Shown here piece after piece: positions 7,050-11,390 of a stretch of DNA of 61,753 bases (positions are counted from its first letter, which is position 1; each line of letters begins with the position of its first letter). Source of the stretch: an uncultured Bacteroidota bacterium (lineage in GTDB: Bacteria; Bacteroidota; Bacteroidia; 2-12-FULL-35-15). The stretch is from the NCBI GenBank assembly GCA_903926385.1, contig CAIYIS010000001.1, positions 1-61,753 on the forward strand, given 5' to 3'. The translations under genes were made by a program, and so were the position numbers. The notes beneath the pieces are model-generated. The model ran no database searches. It saw only the letters and a list, made by a program, of their open reading frames with translations, and was not told the origin of the DNA.

Positions 7050-7779
7050 CTGTTTTAGTTTATTAGTATCGTGGTTTATTAATAAGAAAAATGCGTTCTT
7101 AACACGTTTGTAAAATTGAAAAATAATGACTTGATATCTAACCCATTATTTTTAATTTTATCAACACTCCATTTGTTCATAAAATTTTAAATTGTTATTA
7201 AGATTTAAAACATTTCTCTTGCTTTTATCATTGCTGTGTTTGCATGTAATAATTCCTGATTATACAAACAAAAAGTTTTAATTTTATAAGAGAAACAACT
7301 AACAACTTAGTAACATTTTTTCGAGCTGTTTTTAAAAAAACTTGTTATCAACATACCTTATCAACATTGTGTTTATAAAACTGAGAATTTCTATCCCTTA
7401 ATCTTTTAAAGAATGATAACTTGTTAATAGCTGTTTATTATTTGTGGAAACTAACATTAACAAGTGTTTTTTCTTTTTTTTTTACAACATACTAACCGAC
7501 CAACAACAACAACAAATTTTTTTTTTAATTAAAATAAAATATATTATTGATATTGTATCGGAAGAATTCTAAAAAAATAAAAGGCAGAAATAAATACTAC
7601 TTTTGTTGCTCACTAAAAATACAGATAAATAAAAAGTAATGAAAACATTCGTAAATAAAGCAGTTGAGAGGTGTTAGAGGTATAAAAATAATTGTTAAAA
7701 AAGCGTTGATAAAAATCTGTTTTGAACTTCGTAGTAGTACTAATTTACTTTAATTTAGCACGAACTAAAAACTGAAAAC
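7050..7779. other. Gene-free AT-rich divergent region, candidate oriC
   Basis: 730 bases without a plausible gene, very AT-rich, between divergent transcription units. It holds three TTATCAACA boxes (7158-7166, 7345-7353, 7358-7366), one mismatch from the DnaA box TTATCCACA, two of them 13 bases apart. A related minus-strand box lies at 7704-7712 and another at 8770-8778. There are also long A/T tracts near 7470-7550. Together with mnmG and three parS-like sites 4-6 kb to the right, this suggests the replication origin. The evidence is indirect: dnaA and parAB are not in the window. Confidence 0.4.
7598..7605 (+). promoter_or_regulatory. Bacteroidota-type -7 box for the signalling cassette
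   Basis: TACTTTTG matches the TAnnTTTG consensus of the Bacteroidota primary sigma factor. It would give a leader of about 170 bases before the GTG at 7780. No clear -33 TTG is seen at the right distance. Confidence 0.45.
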
Positions 7780-8700
7780 GTGAGTAATTTATCAGAAGAA
7801 AAAACAGAAACAAAACGTAATTTATCAGAAGTAAATAATGCTGATTTATCAGGTAATAATTTACAGGAAAACCGTGCAGCAGTTCTTGAAAATCATCTGA
7901 GGAAAAATAAGGATGAAAACTATTTTTCCACTCCTTCGGCTCGTGTAGATAAAGATGCCGAAATATCGAAAATAAAGGAGGAAATAAATAAGATAAAAAA
8001 CGCTGCTGCAGTTGAAGCACCTGCCGAAACTAAAACAGATGATTACAAAGCAAGTGTAGATAAACTTCTGTTTAATTTCCGAAACGAAATTAATTCTCCA
8101 ATAAATTCAATTGAATATTCTACCGAAAATTTACAAGCCGAATACGAACGAATTATTAATTATTTCGGTATGCTTTCCGGGCCCGATTATCCTGCCGAAG
8201 CACTCGACCGTGTGGTGGATTATGTAAATGTATTAATGGAAAACACAGTTGAAAAATTAGAACCAACTGAAATTCGGGAACGTAAAAAAACATTTTTAGC
8301 GCTGCTTAAAGAATATGAATTTAAAAACTCCAAACGTGGTGCTGATTATTTTGTAGAGTCGGGTGTTTATTTTATAGATGATGAATTACTCTGGATATTT
8401 TCTCAGCCAAAAGCAGAAATTTTATTCGATTTAATGATTGCTATTTTATCTGTAAAACAATCATTCGAAGTGTTAACAGCAGCTAAATCGCGCACTCGAT
8501 ATTTAATTTCTAACTTATTTGTTTCTGCCGGAAAAGAAGCTCCTGTTGAATTTAAAGTTACTGAACAACAAATAGCGGAGACAAAAAAACAAAAACGTCA
8601 ACTTCGTTTTAATGAAATAAAACCTGTACTTAAAATGGCAATTATACTGTTAAATCTTTTTGCTATTTTTAATATGTTGTTTCATATTTTCTTCAAATAA
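7780..8700 (+). CDS. Membrane-anchored kinase-like protein lacking phosphoacceptor His and ATPase domain
   Basis: 306 residues from a GTG start. It is a paralogue of the next gene's N-terminal two thirds. Both carry the motif LQxxRAxxLExHLR near residues 28-41 and both share a helical region (LLFNFRNEINSPINSIEYS here; LLPDFLHEISSPISSVEYS next door). The candidate phosphoacceptor histidine of the neighbour (H113) is asparagine here (N102). Where the neighbour has its ATPase domain, this protein ends in a short charged linker and one C-terminal membrane helix (about residues 283-305). It probably acts as a non-catalytic partner or anchor for the kinase; that role is inference. Confidence 0.75.
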   Translation: MSNLSEEKTETKRNLSEVNNADLSGNNLQENRAAVLENHLRKNKDENYFSTPSARVDKDAEISKIKEEINKIKNAAAVEAPAETKTDDYKASVDKLLFNFRNEINSPINSIEYSTENLQAEYERIINYFGMLSGPDYPAEALDRVVDYVNVLMENTVEKLEPTEIRERKKTFLALLKEYEFKNSKRGADYFVESGVYFIDDELLWIFSQPKAEILFDLMIAILSVKQSFEVLTAAKSRTRYLISNLFVSAGKEAPVEFKVTEQQIAETKKQKRQLRFNEIKPVLKMAIILLNLFAIFNMLFHIFFK

Positions 8701-8848
8701 ATTTATTCCTTTTATCGGTTTTATTGCGTTTCACTTATCAGTGGAGTAAAAAAATATTGTTAAAAACAAGGTTGATAACATTATTCAATTGCTTTTTTTA
8801 ACCACTGTTATTAGCTCTAATTTTGGACACATATATAAATCTTATATC

Positions 8849-10102
8849 ATGGGCGAGATTAGTGAAAATGAAAAGTTAATAACTGCAAAACCTGTAAACA
8901 CAGGTAATTTAGACAACAGCAGTTTGCAAAACAAGCGTGCGGGAATACTCGAGAAACACCTCAGAGGTAATAATCCCGATGTTTCATCCGACTCCGATTT
9001 TTTGGTTGGAAGTTCCGGAAGTAATCTGATTCAAAACGAAGAAGACCTCGAAAAAGAACTGGAATTATTACGGCTTAAATCTGAATTGATAAGTTTAAAA
9101 TCTGCTCAGGTGCATAAAGCGAGCGATGAAGTATTGGATAAAGAATTCAATAAAGTACTTGATAAATTATTACCCGATTTTCTTCACGAAATTTCTTCAC
9201 CTATTTCTTCTGTCGAATATTCATCAGATAATTTATTTACAGAATACCAGAAAATAATTTCATCTTTTATTTCTATTGCCGAATTCGATTACCCTGTAGA
9301 AGCATTTCAGAAAGTGGTGAATTATGTATCAGCTCTGGAGAATAGTAATGTTGCCGTTTATGATACAAAAGAATTGCGCGAGCTGAAAAAGAAATTTATT
9401 TCAGATTTAACAAGGTATCAAATAAAACACCCTCAGCGTGCTGCCGAATTCCTGATATCTTCAGGGATTTATGGTATAAACGAGAAGTTACACTGGATTA
9501 TCAGTCAACCTCAGGGTATCATTCTTTTCGATATGCTTATTTCTCTTTTGTCCGTAAAGCAGTCTTTTGCGGTGTTAGAAGCAGCCAAAAAGCGCAGCAG
9601 GTACTTGGTGTCCACTTTAAAAAATTATACCAATAAACTGCCTGATTCCGTTTCTGAACTTTTCGATTTAAAAACATCTATCGAAACGGCCATTGTGCTC
9701 GTAAAACAACGTTTAAAATCATGTACTTTCAGTTTTCAATACAATGCCGATTGTTTTATTCAGGGTAATATTCAGCACATTGTTCATGTGTGGATTAATT
9801 TACTATCAAACGCTGTAGAAGCTACTAATGGTTCGGGTATAATAGTTGTTAATGTTATTAAAGAAAACGATGATGTGGTGGTAACTATTCAGGATAATGG
9901 CCCTGGCATTCCTGCAGATATTATTTCTAAAATATTTACCCCTTATTTCACTACAAAGAAAAATCAGGGCGGTACCGGTATTGGTTTAGATATTTGCAAA
10001 AATGTAATATTTGCTATTGGCGGAATCATTACTGTTTCCTCTCAACCGGGTAATACTGTGTTTACAGTTCGAATTAAAAATTATGCAACAGGTACTAAGT
10101 AA
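8849..10102 (+). CDS. Soluble histidine kinase with HATPase domain
   Basis: 417 residues. I chose the ATG at 8849; an upstream in-frame start at 8789 would add 20 residues unlike anything in the paralogue. Helical N-terminal region, candidate phosphoacceptor H113 in LHEISSPISS, then a GHKL ATPase domain from about residue 300: N box WINLLSNAVEAT, G1 DNGPGI, F box TPYFTTK and G2 GGTGIGLDIC. There is no membrane helix, so input probably comes from a partner, plausibly the membrane-anchored paralogue upstream. It overlaps the next gene by 20 bases, so the phosphorelay REC-phosphatase is its likely target. Confidence 0.85.
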   Translation: MGEISENEKLITAKPVNTGNLDNSSLQNKRAGILEKHLRGNNPDVSSDSDFLVGSSGSNLIQNEEDLEKELELLRLKSELISLKSAQVHKASDEVLDKEFNKVLDKLLPDFLHEISSPISSVEYSSDNLFTEYQKIISSFISIAEFDYPVEAFQKVVNYVSALENSNVAVYDTKELRELKKKFISDLTRYQIKHPQRAAEFLISSGIYGINEKLHWIISQPQGIILFDMLISLLSVKQSFAVLEAAKKRSRYLVSTLKNYTNKLPDSVSELFDLKTSIETAIVLVKQRLKSCTFSFQYNADCFIQGNIQHIVHVWINLLSNAVEATNGSGIIVVNVIKENDDVVVTIQDNGPGIPADIISKIFTPYFTTKKNQGGTGIGLDICKNVIFAIGGIITVSSQPGNTVFTVRIKNYATGTK

Positions 10103-11390
10103 TTTTTCAAAACAAGCACCTTATTTTGCCGAATCAAAACCGGCCGAACATTGTATTTTGATTATTGATGACGACCAAAATTTGGTTCTTACCATCAAGG
10201 AAAAATTATATAATGTTGAAGAATTTTCGTTTACAGTCGAAACAGCTACAGATCCTCTAATGGCTATCGATTTAATGAATACACTGCGCGAAGAAGGAGT
10301 AGATATATCTCTAATCATTTCCGATTTATCCATGCCAGGTATGCAGGGTAACGAATTGTTAGAAGAATCGATGAAGTATTATCCCGATGCTAAAAAAATT
10401 CTCATGTCGGGCAATCCTACACTCGATGCTATTATACATTCTTTAAATACCGCGCATTTATATCGAATGCTTACCAAGCCCATTGATGACCTCGATTTTC
10501 AAACCACCATCAAACAGGCTATAGAAGCGCTCGAAACGGAAAAGAAATTAAAAGAAACCAATTCCAAACTAAAAGACCTTAATTCAAATCTTGCTAAAAT
10601 AGTTGAAGAAAAAGTTTTTGAAATAAAAAGTAAAAACAAACAACTAACAGATAGTATTCATTATGCCGGACTCATTCAAAAGTCTGTCCTATCCTGCGAG
10701 GACCAGTTTGCCCTCGACATACAAAATGCATTTACCCTTATTATACCGAAAGATATAGTAAGCGGAGATTTTTTCTGGTATCATAACGATGAAAACCAAC
10801 TCTCCTATTGTATTGCCGATTCCACCGGACACGGGGTTCCGGGAGCTTTTGTTTCTTTGCTTGCTTTCGGTTCTTTGCGTGAATCGTTCGAACATACAAA
10901 ATTTAAAAACGATGTAAATACTATTGTTAGTAATGCCAACAATCAGTTTAAAAAAACGTTGAATAGCAATACCAATCATGATTCTGTGGAGTTAGGTTAT
11001 TTTGTGCTTGATAAAAAAACAAGACAAATTAAATTCTGCGGATTCAAAATTTCACTCTTCATTGTCCGAAAAGCCCAGCTAATTGAGCTAAAAGGAAGCA
11101 AACTTATTTTTGGTTCAGATTCCATAGACAGCATAGACGAAGCATACATTCAAACATTCGACCTTCTTAAGGGCGACACCATTTTCATGACTTCTGATGG
11201 TTTTGTTGATCAGTTTGGAGGTAAGGACAACAAAAAATTCTCCAGTAAGCGTTTCAAAATGCTTATCTCTATAATCGGTTCACATCATCCTGAAAAGCAT
11301 CGCGAAAGCCTTATGAAAGAATTCCTAAGCTGGAAAGGCAATAACGAACAAACGGATGATGTTAGTGTTTTTGGATTGTCCATTACTTAA
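10083..11390 (+). CDS. Response regulator with SpoIIE-type PP2C phosphatase output
   Basis: 435 residues from the ATG at 10083, which overlaps the kinase stop. Residues 1-150 form a REC domain: acidic pocket IIDDD (28-32), phosphoacceptor D81 in IISDLSMPG, Thr/Ser region ILMSGNP and Lys in LTKPID. A coiled coil (about 150-200) connects to a SpoIIE/PPM phosphatase with the motifs PKDIVSGDFFW, DSTGHGVPGA, TSDGFVDQFGG and QTDDVSVFGL. Such proteins dephosphorylate serine or threonine, typically on anti-sigma-factor antagonists, when REC is phosphorylated. No STAS or anti-sigma partner is encoded nearby, so the substrate is unknown. Confidence 0.9.
   Translation: MQQVLSNFSKQAPYFAESKPAEHCILIIDDDQNLVLTIKEKLYNVEEFSFTVETATDPLMAIDLMNTLREEGVDISLIISDLSMPGMQGNELLEESMKYYPDAKKILMSGNPTLDAIIHSLNTAHLYRMLTKPIDDLDFQTTIKQAIEALETEKKLKETNSKLKDLNSNLAKIVEEKVFEIKSKNKQLTDSIHYAGLIQKSVLSCEDQFALDIQNAFTLIIPKDIVSGDFFWYHNDENQLSYCIADSTGHGVPGAFVSLLAFGSLRESFEHTKFKNDVNTIVSNANNQFKKTLNSNTNHDSVELGYFVLDKKTRQIKFCGFKISLFIVRKAQLIELKGSKLIFGSDSIDSIDEAYIQTFDLLKGDTIFMTSDGFVDQFGGKDNKKFSSKRFKMLISIIGSHHPEKHRESLMKEFLSWKGNNEQTDDVSVFGLSIT

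Follow-up and report, generated by a model that had tools for sequence, protein, structure and literature searches.

A candidate tail-anchored pseudo-histidine-kinase encoded beside its kinase relative and a REC-SpoIIE phosphatase in an uncultured Bacteroidota genus

The accessory pseudo-histidine-kinases that we found in print mostly keep an ATPase domain. RocA of Streptococcus pyogenes is described as a histidine-kinase-related membrane protein that is not a working kinase and acts on the true kinase CovS (PMC7028121, PMC7380576). Its own features are given as six predicted N-terminal membrane segments, a DHp histidine and a degenerate ATPase domain (PMC7028121), and its binding to CovS is reported to go through the membrane segments (PMC7380576). 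In Corynebacterium glutamicum, a ChrS kinase without a working ATPase domain is reported to alter signaling through the paralogous kinase HrrS, and heterodimers are reported for the native ChrS/HrrS pair (PMC9491836). FasB and FasC of S. pyogenes, which are linked kinase-like proteins, are reported to pair and to serve one response regulator, and FasC still works without its kinase domain, which is to that extent dispensable (PMC12675982). For DivL of Caulobacter, the discussion in PMC9491836 describes the ATPase domain and the phosphorylation residue as unneeded for the effect on CckA. Here we analyze a three-gene locus on a 61,753-nucleotide stretch of DNA (hereafter, the window; contig CAIYIS010000001.1 of assembly GCA_903926385.1) from an uncultured Bacteroidota bacterium. 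The locus encodes a histidine kinase, a protein that joins a REC domain to a SpoIIE-type phosphatase (REC-SpoIIE) and, upstream of both, a paralogue of the kinase that lacks the catalytic parts and ends in a hydrophobic tail. The reading that we favor, and to which we give an even chance of being right, is that the paralogue is a tail-anchored pseudo-histidine-kinase, an accessory subunit that would pair with the neighboring soluble kinase through the DHp domain at the membrane.

By alignment, the similarity between the paralogue and the kinase is far beyond chance. The two share 43% identity over paralogue residues 14-247 (E 1.6e-50), in agreement with an earlier interpretation made without database searches (hereafter, the sequence-only reading), which had described the first gene as repeating the N-terminal motif and helical region of the kinase. 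Common to both proteins are the motif LQxxRAxILxxHL at the N terminus, a charged helical stretch and the entire DHp-like region. Together with relatives from other genomes of the genus, the family comprises seven kinases and four paralogues; the alignment of these 11 sequences contains 47 invariant columns, the start Met counted, and a scan of the seven genomes with the N-terminal motif returned 11 matches at E <1e-11, all of them family proteins, with the next at 0.077. Asn102 of the paralogue, in the sequence NEINSP, aligns with His113 of the kinase, in HEISSP, and this phosphoacceptor position is Asn in 4/4 paralogues and His in 7/7 kinases. The exchange of the candidate phosphoacceptor His for Asn, which the sequence-only reading had pointed out, is hence a constant feature of the paralogues.

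The absence of an ATPase domain, likewise proposed earlier, agrees with the profile searches: the paralogue gave nothing over the cut-off against Pfam (best E 0.17), so no HATPase_c match, and against NCBIfam there was no match at E up to 0.1. Instead of an ATPase domain, the frame ends in a hydrophobic tail in all four orthologues, with a Kyte-Doolittle 19-residue mean of 2.21-2.65. The claimed C-terminal membrane helix is to this extent borne out, as a hydropathy prediction. In the six complete kinases the Kyte-Doolittle maxima are 1.43-1.78 and are located in the DHp or ATPase region; the description of the kinase as soluble is supported as a prediction by contrast with the tail of the paralogue, by a margin that is not wide. 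Judged on these sequences, the paralogue lacks the defining features of a sensor histidine kinase, namely the phosphoacceptor His and HATPase_c. Spo0B and ChpT are DHp-like phosphotransferases; such a phosphotransferase role is ruled out for the paralogue, in which the phospho-accepting His is gone in all four sequences.

A first search covered 59 genomes: 36 belong to the genus, counting that of the window, and 23 to other families of the class. Seven matched, every one in the genus. The N terminus of the kinase is present in 7 of the 36 genus genomes, and these seven also have a REC-SpoIIE orthologue, at 72-83% identity; among the matches listed, other REC-SpoIIE matches show no more than 40% identity, except for a second piece of the G004 gene. 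In the window the kinase and REC-SpoIIE frames overlap, as had been claimed, here by 20 bp (10083 versus 10102), and the overlap is 8-26 bp in the six genomes that have both starts on one contig. The paralogue occurs in four of the seven pair-bearing genomes (G000, G004, G014 and G026). In all four, the order is paralogue, kinase, REC-SpoIIE, with the paralogue directly upstream at a gap of 142-154 bp, and the opposite flank of the paralogue is occupied by a rpiB-like gene in reverse orientation, its identity being read from sequence. In two genomes, G034 and G011, the kinase-phosphatase pair has different neighbors and no paralogue; in G013 the kinase runs off the contig end, the phosphatase lies on a separate contig and no paralogue was found. 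Ten of the other 29 genus genomes are only 64-89% complete, and absence there is uncertain. The sequence-only reading had called for the three-gene order to be sought in relatives, and the outcome counts half against it: the linkage is there wherever the paralogue exists, but the paralogue is absent from three of the seven pairs. Therefore, on this distribution, it is an optional add-on and not an essential anchor. The idea of a membrane-anchored dead partner of the kinase survives insofar as the anatomy fits and is kept in four species; as an anchor that the kinase requires, it does not.

Wider searches added no strong relatives. When two family peptides were sought in 84,980 species genomes, 89 stretches were returned, of which six encode relatives; all six are from uncultured 'Bacteroidetes' metagenome-assembled genomes and are the same six relatives as in the genus search. 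At the class level, a profile search matched 18 of 295 genomes, three of them in the genus and the other 15 weak (best E 1.0e-9). Since the genus, species-genome and class-level searches found no strong relatives elsewhere, we know the three-gene cassette from a single genus. Viral contigs gave 15 pattern matches, none of them a relative, and a plasmid search gave no match. Three of the 15 class-level matches outside the genus (L037, L038 and L040), picked for E-values among the best, were read. Their kinases carry HEINTP or HEVNTP and a similar insert, the ATPase part of L037 lying beyond the stretch covered, and in L038 and L040 the kinase precedes a REC protein whose output is cyclase-like, as read from sequence and not by search. 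Because the L038 and L040 kinases precede REC cyclase-like proteins, the comparison suggests that long-insert kinases of this type have partners among REC proteins with several kinds of output.

Within the four species the paralogue has diverged to 51-63% identity and is under purifying selection, with a ratio of nonsynonymous to synonymous substitution rates (dN/dS) of 0.13-0.25 in five of six pairs, although the method is rough at these distances and synonymous sites are saturated in the sixth pair. Conservation of this kind speaks for a function. When the four paralogues are compared in windows of 18 residues, conservation peaks at residues 97-114, around N102, with 16 of 18 positions invariant; windows starting at 95 and 96 tie with it, and 6 of 20,000 shuffles reach 16/18. 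In the kinases the best-conserved window is elsewhere, at the end of the second helix. Moreover, F98, R101, N102, N105 and N109 are fixed in 4/4 paralogues and fixed differently in 7/7 kinases. Because these five residues are fixed one way in the paralogues and another way in all kinases, we read the former active site as having been remodeled and not left to decay. The origin of the paralogue is less clear from the trees. In a tree of the DHp region the paralogues fall outside all kinases, with a support of only 62. A single-gene species tree of MnmG, which covers 30 of the 36 genus genomes (G011, G013, G016, G017 and G018 have no match and G021 has a match without a locus), groups G000 with G034 at a support of 92, a grouping that would need loss of the paralogue in the G034 line or movement of the gene.

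The paralogue and kinase genes also share an upstream element, TTGTTnAmAAm-(2-4)-GTTnATAA, which is followed by TAATTT. In upstream alignments of the four paralogue genomes this element is the most conserved stretch: of 26 columns, 23 do not vary upstream of the kinase and 21 upstream of the paralogue, and in either case 0 of 20,000 column shuffles did as well. With a window of 20 columns upstream of the paralogue, a count of 15 is reached by 82 of 20,000 shuffles. A scored scan located the element before all 11 family genes (seven kinases and four paralogues) with 17-19 of 19 positions matching, its end 65-70 bp from the start codon in every case (L030-L035 included), and 0 of 300 shuffles reached the element score for any family gene. 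TAATTT is invariant in the alignment of the 11 upstream regions; the Bacteroidota -7 consensus is TAnnTTTG. A widened pattern gave 12 matches in the seven whole genomes (~29 Mb), 11 of them before the family genes, and one match in the reversed control. This pattern was widened to fit the 11 family genes, whose matching is by construction, and its scarcity elsewhere is the test. The sole other match, G011:C331:2086, runs over the final codons of an unrelated frame of 202 aa and ends 88 bp before a fhs-like frame. Informative for the element are its fixed distance, its conservation in the upstream alignments and its near absence elsewhere.

An early form of the pattern matched twice within the window, at both sites, versus 0.21 matches expected. 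An earlier pattern of fixed spacing, with two mismatches allowed, gave five matches in the window's own genome versus four in the reversed control, which is control level except for the kinase site. Of the five, the kinase site alone had one mismatch; the paralogue site was missed because the spacing there is one base shorter. Within the element are two GTT-nnn-AA units at a distance of 11-12 bp, which is also the spacing in direct-repeat operators bound by OmpR/PhoB-type regulators; a search of both upstream regions for direct repeats of 8 or more bases came back empty. Since the element precedes all 11 family genes and is near absent elsewhere, one regulator very probably controls both the paralogue and the kinase, and the element is probably older than the split between them. 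The translation starts differ: in all four paralogues the start codon is GTG or TTG, and no ATG occurs in frame before residue 131, whereas all seven kinases start with ATG. Such conserved non-ATG starts point to a lower production of the paralogue relative to the kinase, which would amount to a built-in lower dose of the dead copy.

The structure predicted for the paralogue has a mean predicted local distance difference test score (pLDDT) of 70.5 and a predicted template modeling score (pTM) of 0.48. It consists of a long helix, residues 83-132, with N102 inside it, short helices, a second long helix at 212-249 and a low-confidence tail helix at 261-305. The ten-residue blocks from 121 to 240 have pLDDT values of 77-94, and the block with N102 is at 78. 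Between the two long helices lie ~80 extra, mostly helical residues. The kinase model (mean pLDDT 64.2) has the same layout, with extra helices between the long DHp helices, plus the ATPase fold; it matches ZraS (E 1.3e-12) and HK853 (7.3e-12), at a TM-score by query of ~0.3. The Pfam HisKA profile matches neither the kinase nor the paralogue at E up to 1, and the modeled insert between the long helices probably explains this failure. For the paralogue, sequence searches of the PDB with the protein and with the family profile gave best E values of 0.042 and 0.058, a Foldseek search with its model gave no match at E ≤ 0.001, and VIA-align with the same model returned generic long-helix proteins, with a best Z of 8.4.

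The kinase has the layout of the HisKA type, with the His motif HEISSP in a long helix (predicted with low confidence there) and HATPase_c behind it, the latter with a Pfam E of 2.1e-24. Four residues after the His, the position (S117 in the window) is Ser in the four kinases that have a paralogue beside them and Asn in the three that do not (L033-L035); it is Thr in the three distant kinases read (L037, L038 and L040). The Ser alongside the paralogue could be one ancestral change, and we treat it as a lead rather than a test. The REC-SpoIIE protein scores 45.9 bits against Response_reg (cut-off 30.2; E 7.4e-12) and 69.6 bits against SpoIIE (cut-off 25; E 4.4e-19). It contains the sequences IIDDD, SDLSMPG, LTKP, DSTGHG, SDGF and TDD, which include the acidic residues of the REC and SpoIIE domains. 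Against NCBIfam the top-scoring model is SiaA, matched by the phosphatase part at 134.7 bits, far short of the cut-off of 700.

The usual targets of SpoIIE-type phosphatases are STAS proteins that RsbW-like kinases hold, and to our knowledge little is known of the targets in Bacteroidota. The genome has two standalone STAS genes (G000:C48:31509 and C57:44969) and two standalone RsbW-like genes (C35:41738 and C39:122491; HATPase_c_2 has eight matches in total, five of them over the cut-off), which are candidate partners of SpoIIE phosphatases. None of these four genes is near the three-gene locus; a third STAS match, C1:36187, sits in a 742-codon frame of the window. SpoIIE-type phosphatases are numerous in the genus: among the matches listed, at least 34 of the 36 genomes have a match at E 1e-40 or better, and a genome has up to at least 24 of them. 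The positions of the genes and upstream elements are collected in Table 1.

Table 1. Features of the three-gene locus. Coordinates are positions within the analyzed window, + strand. The kinase start is taken as the ATG at 8849; the mechanical open reading frame begins at a TTG further upstream.
Feature	Position	Strand	Description
Paralogue upstream element TTGTTnAAAAA-nn-GTTGATAA	7692..7712	+	Ends 67 bp before the paralogue start
Paralogue -7-box-like element TAATTTAG	7751..7758	+	TAATTT invariant in 11/11 aligned upstream regions
Paralogue gene	7780..8700	+	306 aa, GTG start; N-terminal motif, charged helical stretch, DHp-like domain, linker, hydrophobic tail
Segment encoding the C-terminal hydrophobic tail, ~residues 279-306	8614..8697	+	Hydropathy in 4/4 orthologues; low-confidence predicted helix 261-305
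Kinase upstream element TTGTTAAAAAC-nnn-GTTGATAA	8757..8778	+	Ends 70 bp before the kinase start
Kinase -7-box-like element TAATTTTG	8818..8825	+	TAATTT invariant in 11/11 aligned upstream regions
Kinase gene	8849..10102	+	417 aa, ATG; His113 in HEISSP, HATPase_c 307-410, no predicted membrane segment
REC-SpoIIE gene	10083..11390	+	435 aa, ATG; REC 25-143, SpoIIE-type PP2C phosphatase 237-432

Two TTATCAACA 9-mers, which resemble DnaA boxes, lie 13 bp apart (7345-7353 and 7358-7366) in the long stretch that separates the paralogue from the rpiB-like gene.

How might the paralogue act on this pathway? If it is an accessory subunit of the kinase, its DHp helices would pair with those of the kinase in a hetero four-helix bundle, as the shared domains suggest, and its tail would hold the complex at the inner membrane. 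Such a mixed dimer would have a changed balance of kinase and phosphatase activity towards the REC domain of the REC-SpoIIE protein, and the phosphatase output would be set at the membrane. Autophosphorylation of the kinase in trans would make the mixed dimer silent, whereas in cis it would leave it active but anchored; the paralogue might perhaps also dock the REC domain. This proposal draws on the homology, the gene order in all four genomes, the co-occurrence of the kinase-phosphatase pair, the purifying selection, the tail in all four paralogues, the long helices, the first of which includes N102, the common upstream element, the N-terminal motif confined to the family in the seven genomes and the precedents of RocA with CovS, ChrS with HrrS and the FasC form without its kinase domain. 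Several points weigh against it. Hetero-dimerization is deduced from shared domains only, the kinase seems to work without an anchor in three of the seven pairs, and its model is weak around His113, with a pLDDT near 50 for residues 101-120. The tail, modeled with low confidence, could be a membrane-associated helix and not a spanning one. Among the described systems, the membrane segments of RocA, and not its DHp, are reported to bind CovS (PMC7380576), and truncated ChrS is reported to show no two-hybrid interaction (PMC9491836). Finally, the conservation peak at the former active site would suit a surface docking a REC or ATPase domain no less than it would a pure dimer interface.

This last point leads to a serious alternative that the sequence-only reading had not considered, namely direct docking of the REC-SpoIIE protein. 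The paralogue would then homodimerize at the membrane, and its DHp surface would bind the REC domain, holding the phosphatase at the membrane or off its substrate without phosphotransfer. We regard this as doubtful on balance, though the 16 invariant residues around N102 speak for it. According to structure entry titles, the partner specificity of HK853 is changed by swaps at A268, A271 and T275, which lie at offsets +8, +11 and +15 from H260; the equivalent positions are S, Y and N in both the paralogue and the kinase (11/11, 11/11 and 10/11 sequences). The same residues would, however, be expected if the paralogue had merely been kept similar to the kinase, and the paralogue-specific F98, R101, N102, N105 and N109, which are on or near the docking helix, could have destroyed docking. 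A more elaborate proposal, which we rate as rather unlikely, turns these five residues to the opposite use: the remodeled surface would bind, and might dephosphorylate, the REC domain of the PP2C protein at the membrane, and the kinase and the paralogue would form a regulon of two genes, with one private promoter element accompanying every known family member.

Dephosphorylation could also be the whole role of the paralogue, as a membrane-held phosphatase for the phosphorylated REC domain in which the amide at the old His position replaces the usual HisKA phosphatase residue. That a DHp without its His can be a phosphatase is illustrated by CrdS, whose His-to-Ala variant is reported to keep most of the activity (CrdA-P half-life 2.6 min, versus 0.7 for the wild type and 53.5 without CrdS; PMC3510030), and E99-x-x-N102, present in three of the four paralogues, is spaced like the CheX motif that the same paper names. 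The window's own paralogue, however, has Asn and not Glu at 99. The HisKA phosphatase motif is given as E/D-x-x-T/N, with the Thr or Asn at His+4 (PMC3510030), and this position is Ser in all four paralogues, which leaves the motif incomplete and makes a phosphatase role less likely. In CrdS, N375A, N375Q and N375D are reported dead and N375T partly active, N375S going unmentioned there, and a PleC His mutant is told there to lose both activities (PMC3510030). We consider the phosphatase role improbable. Most improbable of all is that the paralogue has no function and is a relic in decay or a product of mis-assembly. The loss of the ATPase domain and the His, and its absence from three of seven genomes, are what a relic would show, but the frame is open in four species at the divergence given above, with the same architecture, Asn and tail, third-position changes dominate and the promoter is conserved. 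A pseudogene or assembly artefact is ruled out by four assemblies with the same architecture and by the selection on codons.

Compared with known systems, the paralogue, on our best reading, would work most like RocA on CovS and like the ChrS pseudokinase with HrrS. Unlike RocA, it has one C-terminal hydrophobic tail, Asn in place of His and no ATPase domain, and its gene adjoins that of the kinase. The ChrS pseudokinase is described as laboratory-evolved and keeps its His (PMC9491836), whereas the paralogue is natural and present in four species. FasB and FasC differ in that each is reported to have DHp and ATPase domains besides predicted membrane segments, and FasC depends on its DHp His (PMC12675982), whereas one partner here has neither the His nor an ATPase domain. 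The output of the locus is like that of the partner-switching regulators that combine REC with SpoIIE, both domains here being over their Pfam cut-offs; unlike in those systems, standalone STAS and RsbW-like genes lie away from the locus. RsbU and HsbR are examples of such REC-SpoIIE/PP2C types. DivL has retained both DHp and ATPase domains, and it does not have a phosphatase response regulator as its output. Judged by titles and abstracts, searches of open-licence PMC papers brought up no recognizable DHp-only tail-anchored pseudokinase, and within that scope we did not find in print the reduction to DHp plus a C-terminal tail, the PP2C output or the private common promoter. The proposed mechanism is readily testable. 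The dead DHp protein is linked here to a SpoIIE-type phosphatase output, a kind abundant in the genus. As a natural form consisting of a DHp and a predicted membrane tail, encoded beside a live relative in some kinase-phosphatase pairs and missing from others, it offers a comparison of pairs that have it with pairs that lack it, which bears on whether a dead DHp serves as a dimer partner, an anchor or a dock for a response regulator.

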